Below, piece after piece: positions 3,496-32,624 of a DNA stretch of 34,327 nt. The notes beneath the pieces were generated by a model. The model was not told the DNA's origin. It made no database searches and saw only the letters and a list, made by a program, of their open reading frames with translations. Source of the stretch: a virus; the IMG/VR virus record IMGVR_UViG_3300018080_008403, positions 1 to 34,327 of that record. One strand, given 5' to 3'. The position numbers were made by a program, and so were the translations under genes. Numbering within the stretch: the stretch's first letter is position 1; every line of letters begins with the position of its first letter.

Positions 3496-3881
3496 GCCGG
3501 CTCCTCCAAGGGCAGGTTGAGCTGGCCGGCGCCGGCGGCTTCGAGCGCATCACGGAAACGGCGCTCGCGGCTGAGGATCTTGACGCCGCGTTCGTGCAGG
3601 CTCTCCAGGTAGTCGAGCGCGGGCTGGAGATCGTCGCCGCGCTTCAGCAGGCAGCGGCCGGGGTTGTTGGAATCGCACGAGGCCATCACGAGGTGGCCGG
3701 CATCGATCAGCTCGCCGGCCAGGTCGACGATGTCGCGCTCGGGGGCATGCACGGACTTGGCCAGGTCCTTGTCCTTCACCATCGCGCCGGCGCCGTGGTG
3801 GGCGCGCTGGATGTTGAGCTCCAGCAGCAGGTGCCGGGCGCGCGGGGAGAGCTCAGGTTGTGGGGGGGGCTGGGGCGGCAT
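3492..3881 (-). CDS. Hypothetical protein, winged-helix-like
   Basis: This 129-residue acidic-to-neutral protein has no family I recognise. After a proline-rich start it runs LSPRARHLLLELNIQRAHHGAGAMVKDKDLAKSV and then alternates helices and short strands (DIVDLAGELIDAGHLVMASCDSNNPG), a pattern resembling a winged helix with strand turns. Such small proteins often precede DUF5131 or HNH genes in phage operons. The ATG at 3881 lies 29 bp inside the apparent end of the upstream DUF5131 gene because that gene reads through a repeat array. The stop overlaps the next start (ATGA), which indicates co-translation. Confidence 0.65.
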   Translation of the reverse strand: MPPQPPPQPELSPRARHLLLELNIQRAHHGAGAMVKDKDLAKSVHAPERDIVDLAGELIDAGHLVMASCDSNNPGRCLLKRGDDLQPALDYLESLHERGVKILSRERRFRDALEAAGAGQLNLPLEEPA

Positions 3882-4764
3882 CCGTGCCTTTCGATTGACG
3901 ATTGACGATTGACGATTGACGATTGGAGATCTCGGCGATCTGTGGCGGGAGCTGATTCCACTCGCGGCCGTCGAGCAGGCGACCGGCGGTCTTCTTGCCG
4001 AGGCGATACCAGCACCAAGTGGTGGACTCGCGCATTGGGTCGCCCAACATACAATCAGGGTCGCGGCATTCTGCGGGTGTTCGCGTGGCGCCTGATCTCA
4101 GCACCTTGCCGATGCGTGGGCTGATACCCCACTCACCCCACTGCTTGAAGAAGAAGGGGATCTGGTGAGACGCACACCAGTCGCGCGCCGTGCGGAACCA
4201 ATCCGGATGGGCTGGTCGGGCGCCGCGGCCGGACTCGCCGCCGGCGATCAGCCAGTCGATGAACTCCCAGCCGCGCCAGTCGATGGGACCGAGGGCGGGC
4301 TCGTAGCTGACGAACGTGCGCCAGCCGAGCGCGGAGAGGCCGCGTAGATACTTCTGGCGCTCATCGGCGCGGCGCTGGTTTTCGATGCTGACGCCGAGCC
4401 AGACGTTGCGCAAAGGAATGCCGTGGTTTAGGAGCCCCATCAGGCGGGGAACGAGGTCGCGCATGATGCGGGGGCGCTTCGTGAGCACGAGAAAGACGTG
4501 CTGCGGGCAGCGGCGCATCGTGTCAAGGATCCGAGTCAGGTTCGAGCACGCAGAATATCCGACCTGCCTAAGCTTGAATGCTCCGCTAGAGTTGTAAAGC
4601 AAGGGGTGGAAGAGATCGCCCATGCTGGGGACGAAGATGACGCGCGGGCGCTGCGTGGGCTGGACCTCGTCGAAGCGGTCGGGGCGCCAGCGCGGCGCGA
4701 AGGGGTTGTGCTTCGGATAGCCGAACCGGCCGGCGAGACGTTTGGCCATGCGGCTAGTGCCCAT
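3853..4764 (-). CDS. DUF5131 (phage Gp37/Gp68) family protein, N-terminally truncated
   Basis: The 303-residue protein matches the Gp37/Gp68 family almost throughout: RMAKRLAGRFGY near the start, RVIFVPSMGDLFHP, CPQHVFLVLTKRP, RTFVSYEPALGPID, LIAGGESGRGARPAHPDW and IPFFFKQWGEW. Family members normally begin with a WNP...GC..VSPGC..CYA segment whose cysteines are thought to bind a metal or Fe-S centre. Here the protein starts only four residues before the RMAKRLAG block, with no such segment in frame upstream, so the cysteine motif is absent. A good GGAGGTG site lies just before ATG 4764. At the other end, after REWNQLPPQIAEI, the frame reads through a GATTGAC array (SNRQSSIVNRQSK) and ends inside the next gene. 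The function of the family is unknown. Confidence 0.85.
   Translation of the reverse strand: MGTSRMAKRLAGRFGYPKHNPFAPRWRPDRFDEVQPTQRPRVIFVPSMGDLFHPLLYNSSGAFKLRQVGYSACSNLTRILDTMRRCPQHVFLVLTKRPRIMRDLVPRLMGLLNHGIPLRNVWLGVSIENQRRADERQKYLRGLSALGWRTFVSYEPALGPIDWRGWEFIDWLIAGGESGRGARPAHPDWFRTARDWCASHQIPFFFKQWGEWGISPRIGKVLRSGATRTPAECRDPDCMLGDPMRESTTWCWYRLGKKTAGRLLDGREWNQLPPQIAEISNRQSSIVNRQSKGTDAAPAPPTT
3893..3929. repeat. GATTGAC heptamer array
   Basis: Four to five perfect tandem heptamers ending GATTGGAGAT. It lengthens the C-terminus of the DUF5131 frame and lies immediately upstream of the start of the following gene at 3881. Confidence 0.9.
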
Positions 4765-4778
4765 CGGCTGGCACCTCC

Positions 4779-5297
4779 TCAGAACAAGGCCGTGGCCGCG
4801 GGGACGCGGCGGCGGTTGACGAGCCGGGTGCGCGGCGGCGGTGACGGGCGGGCCGGCTCCGCCGGCGGCGGGCCGCCGTGGCGCGGGCGGCGCAGCGCGG
4901 CGGGATCGACCTGGAAACGCACGGTCAGCCCCAGGTCGCGACGGATACGCTCGGCGGCCGGGCGCAGGCGCAGCGAGACGCTCGGGTGCGACACCGCGAT
5001 CGTGAGCACGCCGGCGGAGATCCCGGCGACGCCGACCTGCCAGGCCAGCTCGCCCGGGCACTCGGACATCAGCGCGATCAGCGCCCGCTCGCGCAACGTG
5101 ACCGAGTGCGATGCGCTACGCAGCAGCCTGGTCAGGCTGACGTCGAGTGACACATCACGCTCGCGATACGACCGGGCAGCCGCGAACTCGCGCCGCGTGA
5201 CGCGGATCGACTTCGTTAGCCGGGCGTTGGTGACGAGCTGGTTGTATTGCATGAGGTTCAGGGCGCTGACCTCCATGTCAGCGAAGTTCTCAGTCAT
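4779..5297 (-). CDS. Hypothetical protein (possible distant DciA/DUF721-like segment)
   Basis: The 172-residue protein has a central segment ELAWQVGVAGISAGVLTIAVSHPSVSLRLRPAAERIRRDLGL that faintly recalls DciA/DUF721, a helicase-associated family with the pattern of a strand, a short turn and amphipathic helices. This is a weak eye match and could be chance. The last ~45 residues are rich in Pro and Arg and probably disordered. The N-terminus MTENFADMEVSALNLMQYNQ offers a second in-frame ATG at residue 8. The gene ends 14 bp before the DUF5131 start and is preceded by a short CAGTTTT repeat. I would annotate it as hypothetical. Confidence 0.6.
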   Translation of the reverse strand: MTENFADMEVSALNLMQYNQLVTNARLTKSIRVTRREFAAARSYRERDVSLDVSLTRLLRSASHSVTLRERALIALMSECPGELAWQVGVAGISAGVLTIAVSHPSVSLRLRPAAERIRRDLGLTVRFQVDPAALRRPRHGGPPPAEPARPSPPPRTRLVNRRRVPAATALF

Positions 5298-5706: not shown

Positions 5707-5811
5707 TTACGTTCTCCACCAGGCGGTCCAAAAGAGCAGGAGGCCGGTCAGCCAGTCGAGGATGGCCAGGGCCCAGATCACCAGGCCGAGCTTCGTGTCT
5801 TCACCGATCAT
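5707..5811 (-). CDS. 34-residue single-span membrane peptide
   Basis: This short gene encodes MIGEDTKLGLVIWALAILDW followed by LTGLLLFWTAWWRT: an acidic head and one long hydrophobic helix rich in Leu and Trp, ending Arg-Thr. ATG 5811 is preceded by GGAGGG at ideal spacing and overlaps the stop of the GemA-like gene as ATGA, the same coupling used elsewhere in the operon. That is the main evidence that it is real. A small early membrane peptide could act in superinfection exclusion or modulate a host membrane protein. No homologue is recognised. Confidence 0.65.
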   Translation of the reverse strand: MIGEDTKLGLVIWALAILDWLTGLLLFWTAWWRT

Positions 5812-6290
5812 CCGGTTTCCCTCCGTCGGTTCGTGGCTTCGTGGCTTCGTCGCTGCGCTTTGGCCAGGATGTTGTCGAGCGCGTCGAGGATGTCGCTGGC
5901 CTGGCCGCTCTGAAGGCCCTCGACATACGGGTGCGCGATGCCGTAGCGGCGCTGGAGCCAGCCGGCGCACTTCGCGCTCGACCAGCCGCACTCCTGATGC
6001 AACTGCTTGAGCTTGGCCCAGATCGCTTTGCGCTGCTGCTGGCTGGCATCGGCGTAGGGTGTGTTCACCAGGCGCGGCGTGCCGTGGCGCTCTTCGAGCT
6101 GGTCCATGAAATGCGCGGCCTGGGCGCGCGTCAGATCCTTGAGGCTGGCCACGCCGGCGGCGTCGCGCAAACGTTCGTGATCGAGGCCGAGCTGGCGGCC
6201 GATGGCGTGGAGCCGGCGCAGTTGGGGCGTGGTGACGGAGTCACCCTTCGTCACTGCGTTACTTCGTCTCTTCGTCACGGCCGTTGTCAC
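5808..6290 (-). CDS. GemA-like phage regulatory protein (Mu gp16, DUF1018)
   Basis: The 160-residue protein carries the DUF1018 pattern: an N-terminal helical pair (LRRLHAIGRQLGLDHERLRD, LKDLTRAQAAHFMDQL) and a C-terminal half (QQQRKAIWAKLKQLHQECGW, CAGWLQRRYGIAHPYVEGLQSGQASDILDAL). In Mu this family (GemA) affects host gene expression and DNA topology. The start is GTG 6290, overlapping the upstream stop as GTGA, with AGGTGAG at good spacing. The first 16 residues, VTTAVTKRRSNAVTKG, come from the octamer part of a 102-bp duplicated sequence and are identical to the start of an unrelated protein at 7573, so they are not part of the ancestral domain. An internal GTG at 6278 or 6254 could also be used. 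Confidence 0.75.
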   Translation of the reverse strand: MTTAVTKRRSNAVTKGDSVTTPQLRRLHAIGRQLGLDHERLRDAAGVASLKDLTRAQAAHFMDQLEERHGTPRLVNTPYADASQQQRKAIWAKLKQLHQECGWSSAKCAGWLQRRYGIAHPYVEGLQSGQASDILDALDNILAKAQRRSHEATNRRRETG

Positions 6291-6342
6291 GTTCTCACCT
6301 TGCTAGGTTGGCAGGCCGGGGCCTGCCCTACATCTGGGCGGT
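6241..6342. repeat. 102-bp duplicated leader cassette, copy A
   Basis: By my reading, 100 of 102 positions match 7524-7625. Read leftward it holds a GGCAGGCC/GGCCTGCC palindrome, a purine-rich ribosome-binding stretch, a GTG start and an octamer array that encodes the first residues of the GemA-like protein. Its far end encodes the last residues of the preceding 229-residue protein. Confidence 0.9.
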
Positions 6343-6976
6343 CCACGATCGCAGTGATCAGGTGGAGGATGCCGGCGAAGTCGCGCTGGGTCAGCTGGTC
6401 GAGTAGCTCGCCGGCCAGGCCGGCGAGGAGTTTGACCTCGTGCAGTTTCTGGCCGCGCTGGTTGTTCCACTGGTGCAGCAGGGCGACGTCGGCCTCCAGG
6501 TCGGCGTAGCTGGGCGGCGGATCGCTGGTGGCCGGAGCGCTGCGCGATTGGCGATTGGCGGTTGACGATTGACGATTGGGCGGGTGGTTGCCTGTCAGTT
6601 CGGCCTCCTCGGCGATCGCGGCGGCGCAGCGGTCGGCCAGGGGCCGCTGGGCGGCGGCGAGCTCCTCGTCAAGAACCGCCTGTCCTTCGGGCGTGAGCTC
6701 TAGCTCATCATCAGCGGCGGCGAGCTCCTCGTCGGCCGCGCGGGCGGCGGCGAGGGCGACCTCGCGGCGGAGGTAGAACAGTTCCTCGAGCGCGTGAGCC
6801 AGGACCTGCGGGGCGGTGTGGGCCTGGTCCATCAGGTGCGTGTGCTGCGATTGGTCCGTGCGAAAGCTGCATTCGAAGAGCTGGTCGAGCGCCTGGACGA
6901 TGAGCGTGGCGGGGTGCTCGGTGAAGTCGGCCAGCTTGGGCTCGAACTTGACGGTCGGGCGGGCGGGTACGTTCAT
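6287..6976 (-). CDS. Hypothetical early protein, Ala/Glu-rich, invaded by repeats
   Basis: The 229-residue protein is largely helical, with an Ala/Glu-rich probable coiled coil (RREVALAAARAADEELAAADDELEL, residues ~69-95) and a C-terminal helix pair (KLHEVKLLAGLAGELLDQLTQRDFAGILHLITAIVD). I recognise no family. Two stretches are repeat-encoded: NRQSSTANRQSR (about residues 133-144, heptamer array at 6546-6580) and the last 18 residues DRPDVGQAPACQPSKVRT (palindrome and leader cassette). The ancestral protein was therefore probably shorter and continuous across the array. ATG 6976 has GGAGGTC upstream at good spacing. It precedes the GemA-like gene with a 4-bp overlap. Confidence 0.7.
   Translation of the reverse strand: MNVPARPTVKFEPKLADFTEHPATLIVQALDQLFECSFRTDQSQHTHLMDQAHTAPQVLAHALEELFYLRREVALAAARAADEELAAADDELELTPEGQAVLDEELAAAQRPLADRCAAAIAEEAELTGNHPPNRQSSTANRQSRSAPATSDPPPSYADLEADVALLHQWNNQRGQKLHEVKLLAGLAGELLDQLTQRDFAGILHLITAIVDRPDVGQAPACQPSKVRT
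6310..6331. repeat. GGCAGGCC/GGCCTGCC palindromic repeat, copy 1
   Basis: Two 8-bp complementary arms followed by CTAC. It is 19 nt upstream of the GTG start at 6290 and inside the 3' end of the preceding gene. Confidence 0.9.
6546..6580. repeat. GATTGAC-type heptamer array
   Basis: Degenerate copies (GATTGGC, GGTTGAC, GATTGAC) within the coding frame of the 229-residue protein, where it encodes NRQSSTANRQSR. Confidence 0.85.
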
Positions 6977-7012
6977 GGCTGACCTCCGTGTCAGCGGGGG
7001 AGTTTTCAGTTT

Positions 7013-7282
7013 TCAGTTTTCAGGTCCCGGTTCGGTCCATTCGTCCTTCGGCCGCAGCTCGACGCGGCCGTCGCGGCAACGGACCATATTGCGGCGGATC
7101 ATGGCGCGGCGCGTGTGGTTCGAGACGGAGGTGCCATTCGCCCAAAGCCAGCGGCAGACCGGGACCTCGAGTAGTCCGTAGCCGCAGCGCAGCCGACCGA
7201 CGACGTAGGCAATACCCGATGGGAGCCGCTGTTTCCCCTTCGTCGCTCCGTCGCTTCGTCTCTTCGTCACTGGCATTTTCAC
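7013..7282 (-). CDS. Hypothetical early protein with repeat-encoded N-terminus
   Basis: The 89-residue protein has a compact core LPSGIAYVVGRLRCGYGLLEVPVCRWLWANGTSVSNHTRRAMIRRNMVRCRDGRVELRPKDEW, which looks like a small basic DNA- or RNA-binding fold, but I recognise no family. The N-terminal VKMPVTKRRSDGATKGKQR is encoded by the octamer array at about 7225-7270 and matches the starts of three other proteins in this window. The start is GTG 7282 (or ATG 7276); the sequence upstream, GTGCGAAC, is a poor ribosome-binding site. The palindrome copy at 7295-7316 lies 12 nt upstream. Confidence 0.6.
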   Translation of the reverse strand: MKMPVTKRRSDGATKGKQRLPSGIAYVVGRLRCGYGLLEVPVCRWLWANGTSVSNHTRRAMIRRNMVRCRDGRVELRPKDEWTEPGPEN

Positions 7283-7294
7283 GTTCGCACGTTT

Positions 7295-7316
7295 GGCAGG
7301 CCGGGGCCTGCCCTAC
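7295..7316. repeat. GGCAGGCC/GGCCTGCC palindromic repeat, copy 2
   Basis: Located 12 nt upstream of the GTG start at 7282 on the minus strand. It forms with its surroundings a third, diverged copy of the leader cassette (about 7243-7316). Confidence 0.9.
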
Positions 7317-7324
7317 CCGGCTTG

Positions 7325-7573
7325 TCACCTGGTCACGTTGTGAGCTTGCCGCTTGCGCTTCCGTTGCTCGCGGTAAGACCACTGCGTGCAACGACGCTCG
7401 GTGGCATGAGCGGCGTACCAGGCGCGGCGCATAGCGCGGAAGCAGCTTGGATTCCGTGTGCAGATCCCGTATCTGTTCCCGGCGCGAATCGGGCCACCGC
7501 AGAGCTTGCAGCGGGGGCCTGGTTCACCCTTCGTCACTGCGTTACTTCGTCTCTTCGTCACTGCCGTTGTCAC
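7325..7573 (-). CDS. Small Cys-rich (zinc-finger-like) protein with repeat-encoded N-terminus
   Basis: The 82-residue protein has CKLCGGPIRAGNRYGICTRNPSCF at about residues 22-45, with a CxxC pair and two further cysteines that could bind zinc, followed by a basic helical tail (RRAWYAAHATERRCTQWSYREQRKRKR). Early Mu-like operons often hold small zinc-finger proteins that bind DNA or RNA; the exact role is unknown. The start is GTG 7573. Residues 1-16, VTTAVTKRRSNAVTKG, are identical to the start of the GemA-like protein because both come from copies of the 102-bp cassette. It lies downstream of the MuB-like gene by about 50 bp. Confidence 0.65.
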   Translation of the reverse strand: MTTAVTKRRSNAVTKGEPGPRCKLCGGPIRAGNRYGICTRNPSCFRAMRRAWYAAHATERRCTQWSYREQRKRKRQAHNVTR

Positions 7574-7625
7574 GTTCTCATCTTGCTAGGTTGGCAGGCC
7601 GGGGCCTGCCCTACATCTGGGCGGT
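7524..7625. repeat. 102-bp duplicated leader cassette, copy B
   Basis: Matches 6241-6342 with two differences by my reading. It begins at the stop codon of the MuB-like gene and ends in the coding start of the Cys-rich protein, so it forms the entire junction between them. Confidence 0.9.
7593..7614. repeat. GGCAGGCC/GGCCTGCC palindromic repeat, copy 3
   Basis: Lies 10 bp downstream of the MuB-like stop and 19 nt upstream of the GTG start at 7573. Confidence 0.9.
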
Positions 7626-8821
7626 TAGGCCGTTTTCGTGAGCAGCTCGCCGCCGGCCTGCTCGTCGATCACGATCGCGACCGACTTCCCGAAGGTCATC
7701 TCCAGCGCCTCTTGCAGGACGTCGACATCGATCGGCTTGGCGAGCTTCGGGGCGCCGCCGGGCGGAAGGCTGATGTCGATCGCGAGCTTGAGGACGTCGA
7801 GCGCGAAGCCCAGCCGGCCGTAGCCGACCACGTTCGCCAGGTCGCGCAGCCAACGCGTGGCCCGCGGCGTGAGGATGCGGACACGCTCGTTCTGGACGAT
7901 CTTGACGATATCGTCGACGGTGTAGAGGCCGCCGTCGTCGTCGAGCGCGCACTCGGCATCGAGATCGAGCACGGGCTTGAGCCGGCGGGCGAGCTGCGGC
8001 TCGATCACGGTCCGCTCGTCGGCGCGGCTGGCCTCGATCAACTTCTTGAAGCGGTGGTCGCCGAACAGGACGATCGGGATCCCGCGGCGGCCGGAGACGT
8101 CGGAGATGTCGTGAATGTCGCGGAGCATCTCCAGACCGGCCTTGTTGAGCTTCTGGGCCTCGTCGACCACGATCACGGTCGAGCCGTGCTTGCGGAGCCA
8201 GGCCTTGATCTCGAGCAGCCGCTTGCGGTGCGGCTGGTTGATCTGCTGGCGCAGCGGGTCGATCGCGGTGCAGAGCAGGATCGTGACGCCGCGGTCGTCG
8301 CGGTGGGCCTCGTCGGGCCGGATGACGACCACGCCGCCGCGGTCGGCCGCGAAGGCCCGGGCGTGGGCGGTCTTGCCGACGCCGGGCGAGCCGATGATCA
8401 CGGGCATCCAGTTGCGCCGGATGCCGGTGCGGATCGTGCCGAAGATCTTCCCGGTCATGCCGATCTGCGCGTGCGAGCGAAACTCGAAGCGCCCGCGCTT
8501 CTCGCGCTCGTCGGCCAGGAACTGGTCGATCTTGCGGAGCACCGCGTCACGGTTGCCCTTGTACTTGTCGTAGCGGATGTCGTGCAGCGTCGACGGCGGC
8601 AGGCCGATCATCTCGGCCAGGCGTTGCCAGCTCAGCGGCTTGCGGCCACTGAGCGGGTTGTCGTCGCGATACGCCTTGAGATCGTCGACGATCTGCCGCC
8701 GGAGCTCCGGCGTGATCTCCTGGTCTTCCTTGACCATTCTGTAATCCACCCTTCCCTGCTGACGCAGGGCTTCGAAGCCGTGCCCGTCCGTGGGCGGTTG
8801 GGAAGTTGAATCGGTGGTCAT
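7625..8821 (-). CDS. MuB-like AAA+ ATPase, transposition target-selection protein
   Basis: The 398-residue protein has an N-terminal helix-turn-helix (about 64-82, SWQRLAEMIGLPPSTLHDI), Walker A GSPGVGKT at 144-151 and Walker B VIVVDEAQ at 216-223. It ends with helical segments like the C-terminal domain of MuB/TniB ATPases. In Mu, MuB forms ATP-dependent filaments on DNA, delivers target DNA to MuA, stimulates strand transfer and protects the phage from self-insertion. MuB is 312 residues; the extra length is mainly N-terminal. The start ATG 8821 overlaps the transposase stop as ATGA, the standard A-B coupling. A long open frame upstream of this start is only a shadow of the transposase gene. 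Confidence 0.92.
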   Translation of the reverse strand: MTTDSTSQPPTDGHGFEALRQQGRVDYRMVKEDQEITPELRRQIVDDLKAYRDDNPLSGRKPLSWQRLAEMIGLPPSTLHDIRYDKYKGNRDAVLRKIDQFLADEREKRGRFEFRSHAQIGMTGKIFGTIRTGIRRNWMPVIIGSPGVGKTAHARAFAADRGGVVVIRPDEAHRDDRGVTILLCTAIDPLRQQINQPHRKRLLEIKAWLRKHGSTVIVVDEAQKLNKAGLEMLRDIHDISDVSGRRGIPIVLFGDHRFKKLIEASRADERTVIEPQLARRLKPVLDLDAECALDDDGGLYTVDDIVKIVQNERVRILTPRATRWLRDLANVVGYGRLGFALDVLKLAIDISLPPGGAPKLAKPIDVDVLQEALEMTFGKSVAIVIDEQAGGELLTKTA

Positions 8822-10956
8822 CCCGCCGCCTCCGTTTCGTAGTTGAGCCGCTCCCAGCCGGTGATGGGGCGCTGCTCGGTGTGCTGCTGCTCGTCGTACT
8901 CGGCCAGCGCCGCGAGCTTGTCGAAGCCGCTGCGACGGGGTTTCGAGGGGCGCTCGACGGCCTGTCGAACGACGGTCTTCTGCTCCTGCCGATGGAGCCG
9001 GGCCGCGGCAGCGGCCAGGTCCGGCCGGACGATGGTGACTGCCGGCGGCTCGGGCGCGGGGAGCTGCTTGCGCTGCTCGGCCTCGCGGGCCTGGGCGTGC
9101 CGACGCTTGGCCTGGAGGATCTGGGCGGTGGGCGTCTCGCGGAGATAGTCGCGGGCCTGGGCCGCTTCCCGGTGCACACGGCGATAACGGGCCTGGAGAC
9201 GGGCGGCCTCGCGGCGATCGTCCTGGGAGGCGCCGCCGAGCTGGCGGTTGTGGGCGTAGCAGATCGGCGCGCCGTCGGAGTCGCACACGGTGACGCGGTC
9301 GGCCCGTTCGGGTTCGATCGTCAGGTAGTAGCGATCGTCCTTGAGACGCCAGACTTCTTCGTCCCACCGGCCGTAGAGGATGTGCTTCCAGCGGAAGCCG
9401 TCGCGGCCGCGCTTGACCGGGCCGACCGTGCGCGTCGAGAGCTGAGCGACGACGTCCAGATCGACGCGGCGAATCGGGGCGCGGTATTGCTCCATAACGA
9501 GGTTGGGACACAGGCCGCGGGTGCCTTTGCCGCTCTGCGCGGTGGCGTGATACTCGCCGAGCCAGATTGGCAGCCACTCGCGCACGTCGTCCTCGGTGGG
9601 CAGGTCGTCGATGCGGCGTTTGATCTCGCGCTCGTGGCCTTCGGGCCGCTCGGCCGGCGAGCCGCCGCACCATGACCAGAGCCAGCGGTCGAAGTCCTCC
9701 TTGAGCTTGTCCCAGATCGACTCGAGCGGCTTGGCCCAGCCGTGGTAGGGGATGCTGCTGTGCAACGTGACGCCGAGCTTGGCGAAGACGCTGCCGATGC
9801 GCGGATCGGCCATGTACTTCTTCTGCCAGCCGGAGCCGCGGCGCGAGCCGAGTGCGGCTTTGTACGCCTCGCCGTTGTCGGCGATCACGTGCTCCGGCGC
9901 GCCCCAGTCACGTAGGGCCTGCTGGATGCCGGCCAGGATGCCGTCGCTGTACTCGGTGCTGCGCACGTCGAGGCGCAGTGAGCGGCTGCGCATATCGAGC
10001 ACGCCGGTGACCACCAGACGGGCCGGACGCCACTCGCGCCGGGCGTCGGGCACCCGACACTTGAAGTCGAGGGTGCGGCCGTCCAGGCACCACCACTCGC
10101 CGGCGAGCATGCTCTCGAAGTCGCGTTCGCACTTGGGGACGCAGTCGGCCTCGAAGCGCTTGGGGCCGCGGCGGGCCAGCGTCAGCGTGGACGGATGCAG
10201 CTCGTCCTTAACGCGCTGGCGGATGGTCGATTCGGACGGCCAGACCCAGCCATGTTGGGCGGCCTCGCCTTGGACGAAGCGCCAGCACTTGGTCAGCTTG
10301 AGGCCGTTGCTCTGCAGGTAGAGCGAACGGAACAGCTCCCAGGCTTCCGGGGTGCAAGCCCCCCTACCGCGCTTCGCGCGACGTCGGCGGACGTTGCCGT
10401 CGAAGTCGGCGCCGGAGTTGGGATCGAGGCGGCGGCGGATGCGCCGGAGCGTGCGGAGCGAGAGGTGCTTGAAGCCCAGCCGGGCGACGTCGTCGGCGTG
10501 GCGGGCTATGAACAGCGCGAACGACTCGCTGGCAGGCAGATGGCCTGCCCTACATTGCTTGGTCGCTTCCCACAGTGTGAGCAGCTCGTGCGAGTTCAGG
10601 AAACGCTCGCGGTCTCGATCGCTCCAGCGCTGATGACCGGGCGGTAACGTGAAGCCGACGAGCTGCTCGACGCGGCCGACGTTGAGGTAGGACTCGACTG
10701 TCAGCCCATCGGGCAGGCGCGCCTCGAGCGAAACCTCGCGTCGGCCGGCGAGCTTGCGGGCCTGGCCGCGGGCGGTCAGCGCGAGCGCCCAGCGGTGCGC
10801 CGACTGGCGGCGGGCGCTCAGCGTTGGGCCGGGGAACGCCGCGACCAGGTCGGTCAGCGGGACAAAACCGGGCGAGGACGCGGCCGGCATACGGGCCGCG
10901 CCCTGCCCAGCGGAGGGGAAAGAAGCCGTCGGGCTGTGAGCCGGTTCGGCACTCAC
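8818..10956 (-). CDS. MuA-like DDE transposase
   Basis: The 712-residue protein carries the RNase H-like DDE core of Mu-type transposases. Candidate catalytic residues are D292 (WCLDGRTLDF), D360 (HVIADNGEAY) and E412 (GWAKPLESIWD), with spacings close to those in MuA; the AKP-E motif is typical. A beta-barrel/Mu-transposase C domain follows (about 490-590), then a basic helical tail that would contact MuB. N-terminal regions (30-90 and 150-260) should bind the element ends. The start is GTG 10956 with AGGGGA upstream and a GTGA overlap with the preceding 36-codon gene; ATG 10890 is an alternative. Residues ~134-143 (QCRAGHLPAS) are encoded by an inserted palindromic repeat, in frame. The enzyme catalyses strand transfer for integration and replicative transposition. 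Confidence 0.95.
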   Translation of the reverse strand: MSAEPAHSPTASFPSAGQGAARMPAASSPGFVPLTDLVAAFPGPTLSARRQSAHRWALALTARGQARKLAGRREVSLEARLPDGLTVESYLNVGRVEQLVGFTLPPGHQRWSDRDRERFLNSHELLTLWEATKQCRAGHLPASESFALFIARHADDVARLGFKHLSLRTLRRIRRRLDPNSGADFDGNVRRRRAKRGRGACTPEAWELFRSLYLQSNGLKLTKCWRFVQGEAAQHGWVWPSESTIRQRVKDELHPSTLTLARRGPKRFEADCVPKCERDFESMLAGEWWCLDGRTLDFKCRVPDARREWRPARLVVTGVLDMRSRSLRLDVRSTEYSDGILAGIQQALRDWGAPEHVIADNGEAYKAALGSRRGSGWQKKYMADPRIGSVFAKLGVTLHSSIPYHGWAKPLESIWDKLKEDFDRWLWSWCGGSPAERPEGHEREIKRRIDDLPTEDDVREWLPIWLGEYHATAQSGKGTRGLCPNLVMEQYRAPIRRVDLDVVAQLSTRTVGPVKRGRDGFRWKHILYGRWDEEVWRLKDDRYYLTIEPERADRVTVCDSDGAPICYAHNRQLGGASQDDRREAARLQARYRRVHREAAQARDYLRETPTAQILQAKRRHAQAREAEQRKQLPAPEPPAVTIVRPDLAAAAARLHRQEQKTVVRQAVERPSKPRRSGFDKLAALAEYDEQQHTEQRPITGWERLNYETEAAG
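10531..10553. repeat. GGCAGGC/GCCTGCC palindromic repeat inside the transposase gene, copy 4
   Basis: GGCAGGCAGATGGCCTGCCC plus TAC matches the family seen in intergenic positions. It sits in frame in the N-terminal DNA-binding part of the transposase, far from the DDE residues. Confidence 0.85.
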
Positions 10957-11063
10957 GATTTCCCCTGTATGAAGATCAGGAATGGCGCGACGGTGGCCTT
11001 GTTGTACAGGGGGTACACATCCAGGTTTCGAGCGAGTGGGATGGACGAGGTCCGCCGCGCCAT
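10953..11063 (-). CDS. 36-residue conserved-context small ORF
   Basis: ATG 11063 begins MARRTSSIPLARNLDVYPLY and continues NKATVAPFLIFIQGKS. It starts 10 bp after the stop of the upstream 132-residue gene, has AGGA at acceptable spacing, and ends in a GTGA overlap with the transposase start. This placement, rather than any homology, is the case for translation: it would couple translation into the transposase gene. The C-terminal half is moderately hydrophobic. It could also be a leader peptide with no function of its own. Confidence 0.5.
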   Translation of the reverse strand: MARRTSSIPLARNLDVYPLYNKATVAPFLIFIQGKS

Positions 11064-11072
11064 GATGACGTC

Positions 11073-11471
11073 CTATTTCTTGCCGCGGGCGCCGACGATG
11101 CGGATCCGCGGGCTGCCCTGGCGGTTGGTCGCGATCAGCTCGAAGGCCTCCTGGCCGAGTGCGGCCTTGGCGCGCTTGGCATCGACGGTGTGCTTGACCG
11201 CGTCGGTGAAGACCGCCGGGGCGATGTCGCGCGCCAGGCACGCGTCGCGAAAGGCTTCGAACGTGATGATGGTGCTGGTCGGCCGGCTGAGCAGGGCGCG
11301 ATGCTCGGGCGTCAGATTGAGGGCCTTGAGGCCCGCGGCCTGCATAAGCTTGATGCACTCGGCGTGGACGGCCTGCTCGTCCTTCCGGGTCTCGTCGATT
11401 ACCTGGCGGATCGCGGCCAGGCGCGTTAGCTGCTTGACCAAGTGGTCATGACTCACGAGTGTGCTAGACAT
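11073..11471 (-). CDS. Hypothetical early protein upstream of the transposase
   Basis: The 132-residue protein starts MSSTLVSHDHLVKQLTRLAA, is helical at its N-terminus (IRQVIDETRKDEQAVHAECIKLMQAAGLKAL) and continues LTPEHRALLSRPTSTIITFEAFRDACLARDIAPAVFTDAVKHTVDAKRAKAALGQEAF before a basic end. I do not recognise a family. ATG 11471 has GGAGG upstream at good spacing and overlaps the end of the upstream frame by 8 bp. Position directly before the transposase suggests an accessory early function; a Gam-like or Ner-like role is possible by position only. Confidence 0.75.
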   Translation of the reverse strand: MSSTLVSHDHLVKQLTRLAAIRQVIDETRKDEQAVHAECIKLMQAAGLKALNLTPEHRALLSRPTSTIITFEAFRDACLARDIAPAVFTDAVKHTVDAKRAKAALGQEAFELIATNRQGSPRIRIVGARGKK

Positions 11472-11913
11472 CGGCGGAGGCCTCCATGCCCGTGGTGTTC
11501 TTGGCGCGTTGGCGGTCATGTTCGTTCGGCCAGGGGCGGAGGTAGTCGCCGCCGGGGCCGAGGAGCAGCACGGGGATCGACGATTGACGATTGACGATTG
11601 ACGATTGACGATTGGGGATTGCGGATTGTTTTGGTCCTATTCCCTCCGTGCCTTCGTGGCTTCGTCTCTTCGTGCCTCTCAGTAGGAACGCGGCGGCGGA
11701 TTGTAATAGGCGCAAGAGCAACCGCGCGGGAGACTTGCGGATGCTGCCGGAAGGCCGGGGTCGGCCTCGTGCCGAGCAGCTCGTCATCCTTGACGCGCCC
11801 CCGGCCTTCCGTGGCTCATTTCGATTGACGATTGACGATTGACGATTGGGGATTAGAGCAGAAGCGGCGGCATCGGCAATCGAGACCAGCAGCGGGGGTT
11901 GCCGCTCAGACAT
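11464..11913 (-). CDS. Repeat-laden frame, probably an eroded small gene
   Basis: ATG 11913 is preceded by GGGGGAAGAAC and overlaps the stop of the 59-residue gene, so initiation looks real. The 149-residue product begins MSERQPPLLVSIADAAASAL and then passes through two GATTGAC arrays (IPNRQSSIVNR; IPNRQSSIVNRQSSIP) separated by a segment of Arg/Ser-rich unlikely protein (including a TTCGTGGCTTCGTC-type array). It ends with VLLLGPGGDYLRPWPNEHDRQRAKN, which looks native. I infer an original small gene expanded by repeat insertion, with the frame kept open because 21-bp blocks of the heptamer lack stops. Function unknown. Confidence 0.4.
   Translation of the reverse strand: MSERQPPLLVSIADAAASALIPNRQSSIVNRNEPRKAGGASRMTSCSARGRPRPSGSIRKSPARLLLRLLQSAAAFLLRGTKRRSHEGTEGIGPKQSAIPNRQSSIVNRQSSIPVLLLGPGGDYLRPWPNEHDRQRAKNTTGMEASADV
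11582..11627. repeat. GATTGAC heptamer array
   Basis: Four to five perfect tandem heptamers followed by GATTGGGGATTGCGGATT, inside the eroded gene at 11464-11913. Confidence 0.9.
11829..11871. repeat. 43-bp repeat, copy 1 (heptamers plus unique tail)
   Basis: A GATTGAC array followed by GATTAGAGCAGAAGCGGCGGC, identical to 12105-12147. The shared tail shows that a longer unit than the heptamers was duplicated. Confidence 0.9.
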
Positions 11914-12104: not shown

Positions 12105-12147
12105 CGATTGACGATTGACGATTGGGGATTAGAGCAGAAGCGGCGGC
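12105..12147. repeat. 43-bp repeat, copy 2
   Basis: Identical to 11829-11871. It ends 20 nt upstream of the ATG at 12085 on the minus strand. Confidence 0.9.
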
Positions 12148-13321: not shown

Positions 13322-13376
13322 GTGACGAAGTGACGGAGTGACGGAGTGACGGAGTGACGGAGTGACGAAGTGACGG
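13322..13376. repeat. TGACGRAG octamer array
   Basis: Seven tandem near-perfect octamers (TGACGAAG or TGACGGAG) ending directly before the start codon at 13379. Confidence 0.9.
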
Positions 13377-14356: not shown

Positions 14357-14377
14357 TCACTAGAGATTAGGGACTAG
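14351..14377. repeat. ACTAGTCACTAGAGATTAGG repeat, copy 1
   Basis: Overlaps the stop of the lipoprotein gene; nearly identical to 24205-24229. Confidence 0.8.
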
Positions 14378-14378
14378 C

Positions 14379-14406
14379 AGCGACGGAGCGACGCAGCGAC
14401 GAAGGG
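14379..14406. repeat. CGACGGAG-type octamer array
   Basis: Short array directly upstream of the ribosome-binding site of the gene at 14415. Confidence 0.8.
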
Positions 14407-14602: not shown

Positions 14603-14736
14603 GGCAGGCCCAGGCCTGCCCTACCAGCTGACGGCTGCTGGGATCCTTGGATCCTTGAATCCTTGCCGAACCCAGCTGGCAGGCCCAGGCCTGCCCTACC
14701 GGGTGACGGCTGCTGGCAGGCCCAGGCCTGCCCTAC
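14603..14736. repeat. Three GGCAGGCC/GGCCTGCC palindromes in a row (copies 6-8)
   Basis: Copies at 14603-14624, 14678-14699 and 14715-14736, interleaved with GACGGCTGCTGG and GGATCCTTGAATCCTTG repeats. The last ends 10 nt upstream of the start at 14747. Confidence 0.9.
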
Positions 14737-15046: not shown

Positions 15047-15179
15047 CGATCCGCGCGTCGACGTGCGGGTGCTGAAAGCTGGGGAGCCCGCCCCGCACGA
15101 CGGCGTGTGGATGAATGGGTGGACGTTCGAGGCGCTGCTGGGAGTAGCGCAGAGACGAAGTGACGGAGTGACGGAGTGA
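14925..15179 (+). CDS. Embedded lipoprotein gene, Rz1-like candidate
   Basis: ATG 14925 lies inside the holin-like gene in another frame, with GGGAGG at ideal spacing. The 84-residue product MRTCARRCWKCSLPFVAVAV continues TGCLNIQPPAAESPRPGLVLDDPRVDV; VTGC at residues 20-23 is a lipobox after a short signal peptide. A Pro-rich mature part is typical of outer-membrane spanin subunits, and overlap with another lysis gene is typical of Rz1. The segment DGVWMNGWTFEALLG is a second conserved-looking piece. The C-terminus (RRSDGVTE) comes from the octamer array that follows. No Rz-like partner with membrane anchor and long coiled coil is certain; 15638-16006 is a possibility. Confidence 0.6.
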   Translation: MRTCARRCWKCSLPFVAVAVTGCLNIQPPAAESPRPGLVLDDPRVDVRVLKAGEPAPHDGVWMNGWTFEALLGVAQRRSDGVTE

Positions 15180-15192
15180 CGAAGCGACGAAG
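15152..15192. repeat. TGACGGAG octamer array
   Basis: Five octamers; the first encode the last residues of the embedded lipoprotein. Confidence 0.9.
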
Positions 15193-15254: not shown

Positions 15255-15602
15255 ATGCCAGTGAACCAAGAATCGTCTGAGCCGGTGGTAGTCGGCGGGC
15301 TGGCGGCGACGTACATCGCCGCCGACGAGGTGAACGGGCACGTGGTGGAAAACGACGGCAGGATCGTGCTGCACGTCAAGAACACCGGCGGGTCGAGCAC
15401 CAACGTGACGGTCAAGGGCGGCGAGTACCAGGGTCGCACGCTGGAGGACCAGGTGGTGGCGGTGCCGGCGACCACCGGTGACCGGTTCATCGGTCCGTTC
15501 CGACCGGCGCTGTACAACCAGAGCGGGGTCAACGCCGGGAAGATCAAGATCGAGTTCAGCGAAGACACGGACGTGACGTTCGCGATCCTGAAGGTGAGCT
15601 AA
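15255..15602 (+). CDS. Small phage structural protein (virion-associated beta-sandwich type)
   Basis: The 115-residue protein reads VVGGLAATYIAADEVNGHVVENDGRIVLHVKNTGGSSTNVTVKG and later VVAVPATTGDRFIGPFRPALYNQ, ending in short strands. This pattern (ND GR...LHVKN...VPATTGDR..GPF) is common in small phage proteins near head or connector genes and predicts a beta-sandwich, possibly a capsid decoration protein. It is not itself characterised. GGAG precedes ATG 15255. Its place ahead of the terminase genes is unusual for a decoration protein. Confidence 0.7.
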   Translation: MPVNQESSEPVVVGGLAATYIAADEVNGHVVENDGRIVLHVKNTGGSSTNVTVKGGEYQGRTLEDQVVAVPATTGDRFIGPFRPALYNQSGVNAGKIKIEFSEDTDVTFAILKVS

Positions 15603-15637
15603 CCGCCAAGGCGCCGAGAGCGCCGAGGGTGTGATCG

Positions 15638-16006: not shown

Positions 16007-16036
16007 CGGCGGGTGAGAACGTGACAAGGTGACAAG

Positions 16037-16789: not shown

Positions 16790-18168
16790 GGAAAGCGACG
16801 AAGCGACGGAGCGACGGAGCGACGAAGGGGAAAGGCCGAAACGCGCTTAAGAGAGGACCACGCAAATCGGGGGCGGCCGGGACGCCGGCCGCCCCCCGCG
16901 CGTCGGTCTTGACGCCGCGGCCGTACCAGAAGCGGGTGATCCTTCTTCCCGACCGGCTCATGGCGCTGATGTGGTCGCGCCAGACCGGGAAGGGTTTTAC
17001 TGCCGCCTCGATCGTCAACGTCGATATCCTCGACGCCGAGGCGCAGCGGCAACGAACCGAATGGGTGTTGACCAACCGCTCACAGCTCCAGAGCCGCCAG
17101 CTCGCGCGCAAGGTGCACGACCAGGCCGAGGCCGTGGTGCGTGCCCGAAAGATGCTGCAGGGCCCCAACGTCAACGACCTAAGCGGCGGCAACTTCGAGA
17201 TCGTCTATCCCGGCGACAGCCGGGTCTGGGTGTTGAGCGGACACCCGGACGCGGCGGCCAGCTTCACGGCGAATCTGGTCGCCGATGAGATCGACCTGAA
17301 CCCGTGGTGGTCGGAGCTGCTCGGCACGGCACTGCCGGTGGCATCGACCAACAATCTGCGTGCACTGCTTACCAGCACGCCGCGCGGCAAGCGCGCGATG
17401 TACCAGGTGTCACAGGATGCGAAGAAGGACGGCTCGCCCTGGTACTTCGAGAAGCTGACCATCTACGAGGCGGTCGCGCAGGGTTGCCCGCAAGATCCGG
17501 CCTTCCTGCGGCGGGCCATCCTGAACGAGGTGCGCTGGCGTCAGGAGTACTTGTGCGAGTTCGTCGACGAGGACACCGTCTGGCTCAACTGGGATCTGCT
17601 GGTGGCGTGCGGTGATCCGGAGGCCACGGTCGAACCGGCGCCGTTTGACGGGCCGGTCTACGGCGGGTGGGACATCGCGCGCTATCACCACCTGAGCGTA
17701 TGCTGGATCGCCGGTCAGGTCGGCACGGTGCTGAGGCCGCTCGGGTTGCTCGTGATGCGCAACGTGAAGTTCGAGGCGCAGATCGAGCGGGTCTCGCAGG
17801 TGCTGTCGCGTTATCCGGCGTTTACGCGGTTGTGCATGGACGAGACCGGGATGGGGGAGATGCCGACCGAGGTCATGAAGCGTCGGTGGGGCGGCTATCG
17901 GGTCGAGGGCGTCAAGTTCAACACGATCAAACCGTTACTGGCTGGCGACCTCCGCTATGCGATGGAGGAACGCAACTTCCTGATCTTCGACGACGACGAA
18001 GTACGCAACGATCTGCACAGCATCCAGCAGACGTTCACCGCCGGGAACAAGCCACGCTTCGAGGGCGAGGCCGCCGGCTCGCACGCGGACCGGTTCTGGG
18101 CGGCCGCGCTGTGCAAGCACGCGGCCCGGCCGGCGGCCGGCGGGTGGATCGCCAGAACCACGTGCTAA
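16786..18168 (+). CDS. Terminase large subunit (Mu gp28-like)
   Basis: The 460-residue packaging motor and nuclease has a variant Walker A SRQTGKGF (64-71), Walker B LVADEID (about 164-170), a coupling motif LLTSTPRGK (about 195-203), and a RNase H-like nuclease with D296 (GGWDIARYHH), D352 (CMDETGMGE) and D435 (HADRFWAA). RQTGK and STPRGK are typical of the Mu-like branch, which packages by a headful process from host-integrated DNA. The start is GTG 16786, in a GTGA overlap; the first 18 residues (VRKATKRRSDGATKGKGR) are encoded by an octamer array and share the tag seen on early proteins. The conserved domain begins near residue 40. Confidence 0.92.
   Translation: MRKATKRRSDGATKGKGRNALKRGPRKSGAAGTPAAPRASVLTPRPYQKRVILLPDRLMALMWSRQTGKGFTAASIVNVDILDAEAQRQRTEWVLTNRSQLQSRQLARKVHDQAEAVVRARKMLQGPNVNDLSGGNFEIVYPGDSRVWVLSGHPDAAASFTANLVADEIDLNPWWSELLGTALPVASTNNLRALLTSTPRGKRAMYQVSQDAKKDGSPWYFEKLTIYEAVAQGCPQDPAFLRRAILNEVRWRQEYLCEFVDEDTVWLNWDLLVACGDPEATVEPAPFDGPVYGGWDIARYHHLSVCWIAGQVGTVLRPLGLLVMRNVKFEAQIERVSQVLSRYPAFTRLCMDETGMGEMPTEVMKRRWGGYRVEGVKFNTIKPLLAGDLRYAMEERNFLIFDDDEVRNDLHSIQQTFTAGNKPRFEGEAAGSHADRFWAAALCKHAARPAAGGWIARTTC
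16795..16828. repeat. CGACGGAG octamer array inside the terminase 5' end
   Basis: Encodes the basic N-terminal tag of the large terminase. Confidence 0.9.
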
Positions 18169-24848: not shown

Positions 24849-24870
24849 GGCAGGCCCAGGCCTGCCCTAC
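24849..24870. repeat. GGCAGGCC/GGCCTGCC palindromic repeat, copy 10
   Basis: Only 6 nt upstream of the start at 24877. Confidence 0.9.
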
Positions 24871-24876
24871 GAGCTG

Positions 24877-25320
24877 ATGGCTGATTCGCAGGAAGCACAG
24901 ATCGTCGAGGGGCTGCGGGAGGCGGCGAAGGACGCCGGGTTCGGGACACAGGTCGGGAAGTTCGACCTGATGAACCTGCCGGACGGGACGGTGTGTGTGC
25001 GGCCCGTAACGGTGAAACCGACCAGCCGCGACAGCAGCCACCAGTACTACGAGCTGCGGGCGCTGCTGGGCGTCCGATCCAAGGCGCGTGGTGATGACGA
25101 TGATAGCGGTAAGCATGCGTTCACCAAGCTATGCAACGACTGTGGCACACTGCTGCGGGCGATCATCAGCTCGGCCAGGTTCCAGCCGGGCGGCCAGAAC
25201 AGCGTGGCGGCGAAGATCACGCGCGGCGAGGTGCAGTATTGGTATCGGCCGGCGGCCAAGAGCGGGCAGGCCGGCGGCGGGATCCTGGCGGTGACGGTGA
25301 CGTGGCGGGAGAGTGTGTAA
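24877..25320 (+). CDS. Tail-completion/terminator-like protein, tentative
   Basis: The 147-residue protein MADSQEAQIVEGLREAAKDA continues GFGTQVGKFDLMNLPDGTVCVRPVTVKPTSRDSSHQYYELRALLGVRS and ends in strands WYRPAAKSGQAGGGILAVTVTWRESV. Its place between the neck-like gene and the probable tail-tube gene fits a tail terminator. No direct family match is seen. The only ribosome-binding hint is GAG at 24871 after the palindrome. Confidence 0.5.
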   Translation: MADSQEAQIVEGLREAAKDAGFGTQVGKFDLMNLPDGTVCVRPVTVKPTSRDSSHQYYELRALLGVRSKARGDDDDSGKHAFTKLCNDCGTLLRAIISSARFQPGGQNSVAAKITRGEVQYWYRPAAKSGQAGGGILAVTVTWRESV

Positions 25321-25353
25321 CCGCCAAGGCGCCAAGGCTGAGAACTGAAAACT

Positions 25354-25375
25354 GGCAGGCCCAGGCCTGCCCTAC
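25354..25375. repeat. GGCAGGCC/GGCCTGCC palindromic repeat, copy 11
   Basis: Ends 12 nt upstream of the start at 25388; an AACCGCCAAGGCGCCAAGG repeat and a CTGAAAACTG unit lie just before it. Confidence 0.9.
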
Positions 25376-27808: not shown

Positions 27809-30151
27809 GTGCCACCGATCGAGAGAGTACCGGGAGTGGGCCGGCCGGGCGGGACGGTAACCGGGCCAATACAGCCCGGGCCCCACCCGGCGGACGACCC
27901 GAGCTTGTGGGATCCGCTGGCGATCGAGGTGACACAGCTCGACGGCGAGCCGCAGGTGGTGACTTGGCTCGGCCCGGCGGCCGAGGTCGATCGGCCGATC
28001 AACGCACTACCGACGGCGAAGGCGCCGGTGGTGTTGTACGACGGGTACCTGCTGAACCGCGGGACGGAGGATGATCCGGATCCGCAGCGCCTGGACGTGG
28101 TCTTGCCGGACGACGCGATCGTGACGATCAGTACGGCGCGACCGAGCCCCGAGCAGAACGTGACGCTCTTTCGGGGGTATCTGAACACGGTGCGACGCAC
28201 GGCGGCCGGCGCAAAGCAGTGCGGGATCGAGCTGGTGCACGTCGCGGACGATCTGAAGGAACGGGCGATCCACGGTCAGTTGTGGCTGAGCAAGGCGGAC
28301 GAGGTGACGTTCGCCGAGAGCAGTACCCCGACGCTGATTCCGAAGGTCGACACGGGCTGGCCGGTGGTGTTCAACCCGGAGGGGGCCAAGAACTGCCGGA
28401 AGAAGCTGACGTATCTGGATGACGCGGACACCGAGTGGCGCTTCGGCGTGCCACTCTGGGCGCACCGCTACTACGACGACCGGCAGGCGTGGACGTGGGC
28501 GCGCGTGTTCATGTTCCTGCTGTACTGGGGCCGACGGTTGCCGGACGGCACGTTGGGAGCGATGCCGCACGACCTGGTCGACTGCAACCTGTGGAAGTTG
28601 ATCTACGAGCGCGGGTATCACCTGGAGGACCCGGACGAACTGGGCGGCGGGGTGGATCTGGAAGACCCGTGGGCGCGGGTGCTGCTGGCCCGGCCGCTGT
28701 CGCACGCGATCGAGGGGATGGACTGGATCCAGGCGCTGAAATGGACGTGCGCGCGGAGCGGGATCGGGTTCACGGTCGATGCATGGCACGAGAGCGACGG
28801 AGCACTGAAGGAGGGGTTCAGGTTCTTCGTGCCGGGGGCGTCGCGGCGCGTGACGATCCGGATGCCGTCGGCGCACTTTCGGACCGACGACAAGACCTGG
28901 ACGGAAGTGCGACGCGAAGCGGACGTGAGCAACCTGGCGGTGGTGGGGAACTACGCGGCGTGCGTCAACGCAGCCCGGGCGGGCGGGGCGGCCAAACGCT
29001 ACGAGGTGACGGTCGAGCTGGTGCCGGGCTGGGACTACGACGCGGAGCGTGTGCCGCAGGTGGACGTGGATCCGGACGATCAGAATGCGGTCGCTGAAGC
29101 GGTGGCGGCAATCAGCTCAGACGCCTGGGGGAATCGGTACTGCACGAACGGCAAGCAGTTTTTCGACCATTGGAGCGTGCTGCGGCATTGGATCGCGCCG
29201 GACTTTGCGGACATGCGGGACACGGACAAGGTGCGGCCGTTCGGTTACTTCGTCGCGGCGGCCTACGAGGCGTTGGACCTGGCCGACCTGGAGGTGGGCG
29301 AGGTGCAGGACGGTGACGAGTTCCAGCATGACCGGAACTCGCTCCGGCCGCGGCCGATCAAACGCTGTCTGACCGGGGTTCGGCCGGGGCAGACATTCCC
29401 GCCGATCGTGCAGGTGAGCTACCGCAGCGGCGAGGATGGGAGCTGGTTTCCGTTGCCCGCGGACGTCAAGGTGCTCATGACGCGATTGGGAGTATTCATG
29501 GAGATGGAGGACTTGCGCGTCGACGGGCTGAAGGAGCCGGGGGAAGGCGCGAGCACGTACACGCTGCCGGAGGCGTATATCCGCGGCACGATGCGGATGC
29601 GGATCACGGGGGTGATCGAGAGCGACAACGACTTCGTGGACGACGACTACGAAGGGTGGACGGAGATCCCCGGCTCGCTGAGCCGGCGGCGGCGGGGACG
29701 GCTGCTGTTTCGACCGGGTGACTTCCGGTGGGCGATCCGCGAGGACCGGGGCGGACACAGCGGCGGGAACTCGATCTTCAAGGGCAGCGAGAAGCCGGCG
29801 ACTGAGGAGTTTCTTGAGGATGCGGCGCGGCTGGTGAACAAGTACCTGCACCGGGCCGATCGAGTACGGCACGTCGGCCCGGTGGTGATGACGGGTCTGC
29901 TCTTCCCAGAGAAGGTCGGCGGGGAGGTGATCGGCTTTCGGCCGGGCGACGAGGTACCGGTGATCGCGGCGGAGGACCAGCAGCACGCGCACGATATAGA
30001 CCTGCGCGCCCGGCAGGACGACGACTACGCGATCATCGCGAACGTGAACTGGAGATGGAACCCGGGCGACGGTGACAAGGTGTCGCCGGAGTTGACGACC
30101 ACGCTGACGCTGGAGGATCCGGCGGCGGTGGTGGGCTTCGGTGAAGGGTAA
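27809..30151 (+). CDS. Large tail hub/baseplate protein
   Basis: The 780-residue protein is the largest product of the window. The region RLDVVLPDDAIVTISTARPSPEQNVTLFRGYLNTVRRTAAGAKQCGIELVHVADDLKERAI resembles the beta-barrel and strand pattern of tail hub proteins (Mu gp44/T4 gp27 type), in which a ring joins tube and fibres. The later part (about 540-620, FPPIVQVSYRSGEDGSWFPLPADVKVLM) is again strand-rich, and the end is acidic. A GTG at 27809 is the start. Function is inferred from size, place after the tape measure and strand pattern. Confidence 0.6.
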   Translation: MPPIERVPGVGRPGGTVTGPIQPGPHPADDPSLWDPLAIEVTQLDGEPQVVTWLGPAAEVDRPINALPTAKAPVVLYDGYLLNRGTEDDPDPQRLDVVLPDDAIVTISTARPSPEQNVTLFRGYLNTVRRTAAGAKQCGIELVHVADDLKERAIHGQLWLSKADEVTFAESSTPTLIPKVDTGWPVVFNPEGAKNCRKKLTYLDDADTEWRFGVPLWAHRYYDDRQAWTWARVFMFLLYWGRRLPDGTLGAMPHDLVDCNLWKLIYERGYHLEDPDELGGGVDLEDPWARVLLARPLSHAIEGMDWIQALKWTCARSGIGFTVDAWHESDGALKEGFRFFVPGASRRVTIRMPSAHFRTDDKTWTEVRREADVSNLAVVGNYAACVNAARAGGAAKRYEVTVELVPGWDYDAERVPQVDVDPDDQNAVAEAVAAISSDAWGNRYCTNGKQFFDHWSVLRHWIAPDFADMRDTDKVRPFGYFVAAAYEALDLADLEVGEVQDGDEFQHDRNSLRPRPIKRCLTGVRPGQTFPPIVQVSYRSGEDGSWFPLPADVKVLMTRLGVFMEMEDLRVDGLKEPGEGASTYTLPEAYIRGTMRMRITGVIESDNDFVDDDYEGWTEIPGSLSRRRRGRLLFRPGDFRWAIREDRGGHSGGNSIFKGSEKPATEEFLEDAARLVNKYLHRADRVRHVGPVVMTGLLFPEKVGGEVIGFRPGDEVPVIAAEDQQHAHDIDLRARQDDDYAIIANVNWRWNPGDGDKVSPELTTTLTLEDPAAVVGFGEG

Positions 30152-30230
30152 CCGCCAAGGCGCCAAGAGCGCCTCTGTATCGAGCCGTCAGCAGTAATCC
30201 ACGCTTGGCGCTCTTGGCGCCTTGGCGGTT
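30150..30230. repeat. Perfect 24-bp inverted repeat with 33-nt loop
   Basis: The AACCGCC...GAGCGCC arm at 30150-30173 and its exact reverse complement at 30207-30230 are two members of the AACCGCCAAGGCG family in opposite orientation. They fill the junction between the hub gene and the gene at 30242. Confidence 0.9.
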
Positions 30231-31916: not shown

Positions 31917-32624
31917 ATGCCGGGATCACGCGGCCAGTACAGCACGAAGGACTATCACGAGAACGCCTCGGCGATCCAGGACGCCGGCACGAGCGCGCTG
32001 GTTTGCTGGTACTATCCCACGGCCGTAGGGCCGGTGTCGCCGGTGGGGATCTACGACACGAACGATACGAAGCGGTGGCTGCGGATCGCGCATATGGGAA
32101 CGGGCGTCGTCAATGCCCAGTGGCGCGACGGCGGGGCGACCACGTCCGCCTCGTCAGGTTTCGCGGCGACGCTGAACGACTGGAACCTGCTCGGTTTGAT
32201 CTTTGTTCCCAACGCAACGCTGCGCGTCTTCCTGAATGGCACGCTCGTGACGACCTCGATGGGCGGCAACCAGTGGCCGTCCCCGCTCAACGCGACGTGC
32301 CTGGGGGTTCAGCACATCTCCACAGGCTACGATCAGCCTTGTCCGGGCTACATCGGGCCGGTGGGACGGTGGACCGCGGACATCGCCGAGGCGGATCTCG
32401 ATGTGATGTACGCCGGGCGGGATTTCCGGTCAGTCCAACCAGACAGCCTTCAGAACTACTACAAGTGCGACGGCGACGGCGATGTGAGTGATCTGATCGG
32501 CAGCTTCAACTTCACCGAGACCGGCACGGTCGGGCAGTTCGATGCTCCGTGGATGTATGGCGTGGGGGCCAAGCTAACGCGGGCGCCGCTGCGGCCGCTG
32601 GTCAACGCAGGGCAGGTGGCGTAA
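31917..32624 (+). CDS. LamG/concanavalin-like tail adhesin
   Basis: The 235-residue protein MPGSRGQYSTKDYHENASAI follows the jelly-roll pattern of LamG-like lectin domains: ALVCWYYPTAVGPVSPVGIYDTND, then LNDWNLLGLIFVPNATLRVFLNGTLVTTS (W..L...F......VFLNG..V) and a late IGPVGRWTADIAEADLDVMYAGRD. Such domains in fibres bind surface polysaccharide. AGGAGCG precedes ATG 31917. Substrate cannot be told from sequence. Confidence 0.75.
   Translation: MPGSRGQYSTKDYHENASAIQDAGTSALVCWYYPTAVGPVSPVGIYDTNDTKRWLRIAHMGTGVVNAQWRDGGATTSASSGFAATLNDWNLLGLIFVPNATLRVFLNGTLVTTSMGGNQWPSPLNATCLGVQHISTGYDQPCPGYIGPVGRWTADIAEADLDVMYAGRDFRSVQPDSLQNYYKCDGDGDVSDLIGSFNFTETGTVGQFDAPWMYGVGAKLTRAPLRPLVNAGQVA

Follow-up and report, generated by a model that had tools for sequence, protein, structure and literature searches.

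A 102-nt block recurs almost unchanged at two gene junctions of a virus contig, a diverged copy lies between them, and three different genes have candidate starts inside the copies. We consider the block to be probably a piece of mosaic junction repeats that was copied by recombination and whose start codons were captured secondarily.

The window (the whole stretch analysed, 34,327 nt) is a contig from a metagenomic virus record. Its predicted products place it as a whole among the Mu-like transposable phages, as domain matches point to a Mu-type transposase (PF09039, in 8818-11358), a B-like AAA ATPase (AAA_22, in 7625-9673) and a GemA-family gene (PF06252, 160 amino acids, 5808..6290 on the minus strand). 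Terminase, portal, head protease and major capsid protein were also detected. Early genes lie on the minus strand and late genes on the plus strand, according to our own codon-usage calls, which are not a standard annotation. A search of viral contigs and genome contigs for relatives of the transposase confirmed none. The contig also encodes a DUF5131 protein (PF07505, E 1.5e-53; 3853-5061, minus strand) near its left end and, inside a late gene, a Laminin_G_3 (concanavalin A-like) domain (31917-32624, plus strand).

Three copies of one block

Copies 1 (6241..6342) and 2 (7524..7625), both on the minus strand, give an ungapped 102-nt alignment with 98% identity (E 3.7e-47), with the 2/102 differences already counted in the first-pass annotation of this DNA. 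The differences fall at coding-strand position 45 (G/A), where AAGGTGAG becomes AAGATGAG, and at position 64 (C/A), a GCC/GCA change within an Ala codon. The diverged third copy, which had been placed at about 7243-7316, proved slightly longer (7236..7316, minus strand; 81% identity, E 8.4e-20). Read on the minus (coding) strand, the order of elements is a palindrome (GTAGGGCAGGCCCCGGCCTGCC), a stretch of the GTGAGAACGTGACAAC type, which in copy 1 is GTGAGAACGTGACAAC itself, and an octamer array; the palindrome was seen in all three copies, as the annotation had it. The AAA ATPase gene ends in a TAA directly 5′ of copy 2. Folded as RNA over its whole length, the cassette showed no clear advantage over shuffled sequences (z of -1.84, -1.22 and -0.27), and we therefore claim structured RNA for the palindrome hairpin only and not for the rest of the cassette. 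A search of the cassette against Rfam gave no match at gathering score, and distant blastn against plasmids and phages gave weak short matches only (best E 0.2).

The start codon and octamer coding segment attributed to each copy are there: a GTG (at 6290, 7573 and 7282 in copies 1, 2 and 3, respectively) opens the sole stop-free frame through the octamer segment. The three genes said to follow the cassette, GemA, an 82-aa ORF (7325..7573, minus strand) and an 89-aa ORF (7013..7282, minus strand), all start in the same frame and orientation inside the copies, with (x)VTKRRS(N/D)(A/G)(V/A)TKG; the peptide is VTTAVTKRRSNAVTKG in GemA and the 82-aa ORF, and VKMPVTKRRSDGATKG in the 89-aa ORF. These GTGs are real candidates for start codons. 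The start of GemA very probably lies within copy 1, which would contribute its first 16 residues, because the next ATG, GTG or TTG in frame comes no earlier than residue 41 and residue 21 is where the PHROG match sets in. Judged likewise by frame, the 82-aa ORF very probably starts in copy 2, and its cysteine-rich part (CxxC...C..C) follows directly; this ORF had no family or database match. The 89-aa ORF, with an N-terminus from copy 3, has a weak coding score and no family match. In copy 1 the GTG shares bases (GTGA) with the stop codon of the 229-aa ORF upstream, an overlap that could permit translational coupling. A related array encodes the N-terminus of the terminase, which begins VRKATKRRSDGATKGKG; the octamer array at 16795..16826 (plus strand), near that N-terminus, encodes the related peptide ATKRRSDGATKGK.

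The annotation had also assigned a ribosome-binding stretch to each copy, and so had taken the copied piece for a complete translation-initiation unit. Predicted pairing with the anti-Shine-Dalgarno (anti-SD) sequence does not bear this out. The duplex reaches -8.5 kcal/mol in copy 1 (4.8% of random sites pair as well), whereas copies 2 and 3 give -1.8 kcal/mol, so that an SD-like stretch is present in copy 1 only and the notion of a complete unit is valid at most for that copy.

Words shared between junctions

Nor is a dedicated portable unit supported, because the palindrome and the tandem words of the cassette are also found apart from each other at many other junctions, often away from starts. 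The recurring words, seen when every junction was read on its coding strand, are GTGACGAA octamers, GTGACAAG, ACTGAAA, CGATTGA, GAACCCT, GATTGCG, CTAGAGA, GGATCCTT, GGCAACCA and TAACCGCCAAGGCGCC, in addition to the palindrome. When mapped over the window, 32 of 53 hits fell wholly outside called genes, where 5.3 would be expected (5000 placements gave at most 15), an enrichment that is partly circular as the words were chosen by eye from junctions. Because of that choice we added a self-match test that uses no chosen words. Compared with within-segment shuffles, noncoding DNA had excess self-match at lags 7 (z=4.9), 8 (z=7.6), 14 (z=4.5) and 16 (z=3.1); coding DNA showed the codon period (3) only.

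Individual junctions combine these elements in various ways. One has an octamer array (15152..15191, plus strand) together with ACTGAAA words and a palindrome, and another (25318..25375, plus strand) is made of a TAACCGCCAAGG word, an ACTGAAA word and the palindrome. Three GTAG-tagged palindromes share a junction at 14603..14736 (minus strand), and a single one occupies a junction at 24849..24870 (minus strand) with no octamer. An identical 43-nt stretch of CGATTGA repeats followed by AGAGCAGAAGCGGCGGC is found at 11829-11871 and 12105-12147, a second copied junction block. In addition, TAACCGCCAAGGCG occurs at 15600-15613, 25318-25331 and 30149-30162, each time beginning with the TAA stop of the upstream gene; a TAA also immediately precedes cassette copy 2.

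From the repeats, copies, shared N-termini, word set and lag-7 and lag-8 signals observed directly in the window, we infer the following course of events. Many junctions of the phage would have been assembled from one small set of words, and the cassette would be one such block, in which period-8 tandem words follow a GTAG-tagged, REP-like palindrome. This block appears to have been copied whole between two junctions, recently in view of the 98% identity, most likely by recombination or gene conversion, with the copy in between being an older relative. Copy 2, which retains the TAA-CCGCC word, is probably nearer to the source. The copies could then have become the start and N-terminus of the genes that they precede, because the octamer variant has one stop-free frame headed by GTG; this capture would be secondary. 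Between genes, the palindrome would give a hairpin in the RNA, and the block may have an effect on expression. If junction blocks do copy between genes and supply start codons and N-terminal peptides, they offer a concrete route to new phage gene starts. The same scheme, if true, would link in one small genome REP-like elements and short intergenic tandem repeats, two classes that have mostly been investigated separately from each other and in chromosomes.

On one strand, pure arrays of GTGACGAA, GTGACAAG, ACTGAAA or CGATTGA are interrupted by stops in all three frames; the opposite strand has none. About 18% of random 7-nt units and 20% of random 8-nt units contain a stop. The octamer arrays that encode N-termini are variants with a stop-free reading frame. 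The pattern may reflect filtering and not function, because stop-bearing arrays cannot persist in sense within genes. As a broader proposal, which we put forward tentatively and hold to be possible but not likely, the junctions would share a vocabulary of REP-like palindromes and period-7/8 words that stop sense-strand translation in all three frames, are copied as blocks, and separate genes in general; variants of them would act as gene starts.

Octamer arrays, gene starts and alternative readings

Seven octamer arrays were examined in the window, and each begins between 109 nt upstream and 12 nt downstream of a same-strand start, a range that was set after the data were seen and into which random places near junctions fall 29% of the time. 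Counting the three cassette copies once leaves five arrays, still above chance. A six-unit array (13322..13369, plus strand) lies directly 5′ of the GTG at 13370, an array ending in GAAGGGAG (14373..14404, plus strand) lies just upstream of the GTG at 14415, and GTGAGAACGTGACAAGGTGACAAG (16013..16036, plus strand) lies directly 5′ of the GTG at 16037. The placement of 7/7 arrays at sense-strand gene 5′ ends counts against the mosaic-block reading and fits a selected role at starts. It would be expected if the cassette were a dedicated translation-start element, similar to the SAS/ESAS of cluster K mycobacteriophages, set before genes that need coordinated initiation. The three same-frame starts inside the copies and the related N-terminal peptide of the terminase point the same way, as do the GTGACAAG words, which yield an SD-like AGGTGA both in copy 1 and ahead of the GTG at 16037. 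However, the SD-like pairing is lost in copies 2 and 3, and identical words stand in junctions away from starts, and we consider such an element unlikely.

Similar arrays in unrelated viral contigs, which are not linked to starts, also argue against a start element. There, by our own gene calls, GTGACRAN arrays were wholly intergenic in 60 of 68 cases (17% of that DNA being noncoding) and CGATTGA arrays in 32 of 41 (23% noncoding). For the GTGACRAN octamers, the next gene was on the opposite strand more often than on the same strand (34 to 16, a count in which several loci look like copies of one phage). Thus, the intergenic location of the arrays is general but their association with starts is not, since the octamers elsewhere, though located between genes, in most cases have no same-strand start next to them. 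At one locus (L018:11840-11960), a strand with GTGACGAA octamers has CTTCGTCACTTCGTCAC about 70 nt further along, so the two octamer arrays are inverted relative to each other. The full word set of the window was found in no other locus compared, which counts against the mosaic-block reading as well.

Boundary sequences at gene junctions have been proposed in lambdoid phages to act as homology for gene swapping. Junction linkers with such a role in swaps between phages would account for words common to different junctions. Between the near-identical copies lies a 1.2-kb segment that contains the 229-aa and 89-aa ORFs and that would be lost if the copies recombined. We nonetheless regard this role as decidedly unlikely, as our searches turned up no relative in which a module had been exchanged or deleted and the terminase relatives (L014 and L015) lack every tested word. 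Mistaken duplication of one junction during assembly, conceivable for a metagenomic record, is hardly credible given the different flanks of the copies on both sides, their two substitutions and the diverged third copy.

Likeness to described repeats

The kinds of element to which the cassette belongs as a variant, REP elements, short tandem intergenic repeats and start-associated sequences, are already known. The palindrome, GTAGGGCAGGC-loop-GCCTGCC, has 11 matches in the window and folds into a 7-bp hairpin. GTAG-tagged REPs, reported in Planctomycetes and other phyla, have a stem of 5-13 bp, a loop of 2-20 and GTAG at one end (PMC3733652). The palindromes of the window have such a stem and loop with GTAG at one end, and share with these REPs the unpaired position of the GTAG, 8-base arms, a short loop, a mostly intergenic location and several occurrences per genome (PMC3733652); the likeness is one of sequence features and not a match to a published family consensus. 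Unlike the described REPs, they reside in a phage genome and are joined to period-8 arrays in cassettes (PMC3733652). No RAYT-type (Y1_Tnp, PF01797) gene was matched in the window at E 0.001, which counts against the mosaic-block reading. Association of GTAG-tagged REPs with a RAYT transposase is common but not required, and a host RAYT gene could act in trans. Between 6310 and 25375 the GTAG tag is on the minus strand at 11 of 11 sites, regardless of the direction of neighbouring genes; for about seven independent places, a hand calculation puts this at roughly 1 in 64 by chance.

The first-pass annotation knew of no described element of this kind in transposable phages, but a nearer precedent exists: the start-associated sequences of cluster K mycobacteriophages are the closest that we found in phages (PMC3203893). 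SAS are 13-bp conserved sequences containing AGGAG, 3-7 bp before the start; some SAS/ESAS have upstream inverted repeats, and a role in initiation was proposed (PMC3203893). Both systems place repeats at the starts of unrelated phage genes. Unlike SAS, the cassette holds the start codon and N-terminus inside the repeat, and it lacks a conserved repeat with an SD shortly before the starts (PMC3203893). The tandem words, in turn, resemble the TAACTGA heptamer repeats of Beggiatoaceae, Cyanobacteria and Bacteroidetes, for which a translation role was proposed and which in one species lie mostly just upstream of start codons (PMC4679880). Both are short-unit direct repeats in intergenic DNA. The window differs in being phage DNA with several words, 7 or 8 nt long, and tandem TAACTGA (TAACTGATAACTGA) is absent from it (PMC4679880).

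In viral contigs and genome contigs we found no exact palindrome of the form TGGCAGG...CCCTAC or TTGGCAGG...CCCTAC, and the exact pattern TGGCAGGCCNNGGCCTGCCCTAC had no match in a set of genome contigs from which near records may be omitted. No palindrome joined to an octamer was found in viral contigs; a shorter palindrome pattern occurred in two viral records, as the palindrome only. An otherwise unrelated viral contig (L009:1051-1125) carries two related palindromes in opposite orientation between genes, the first just 3′ of the stop of an ORF at 143-1048.
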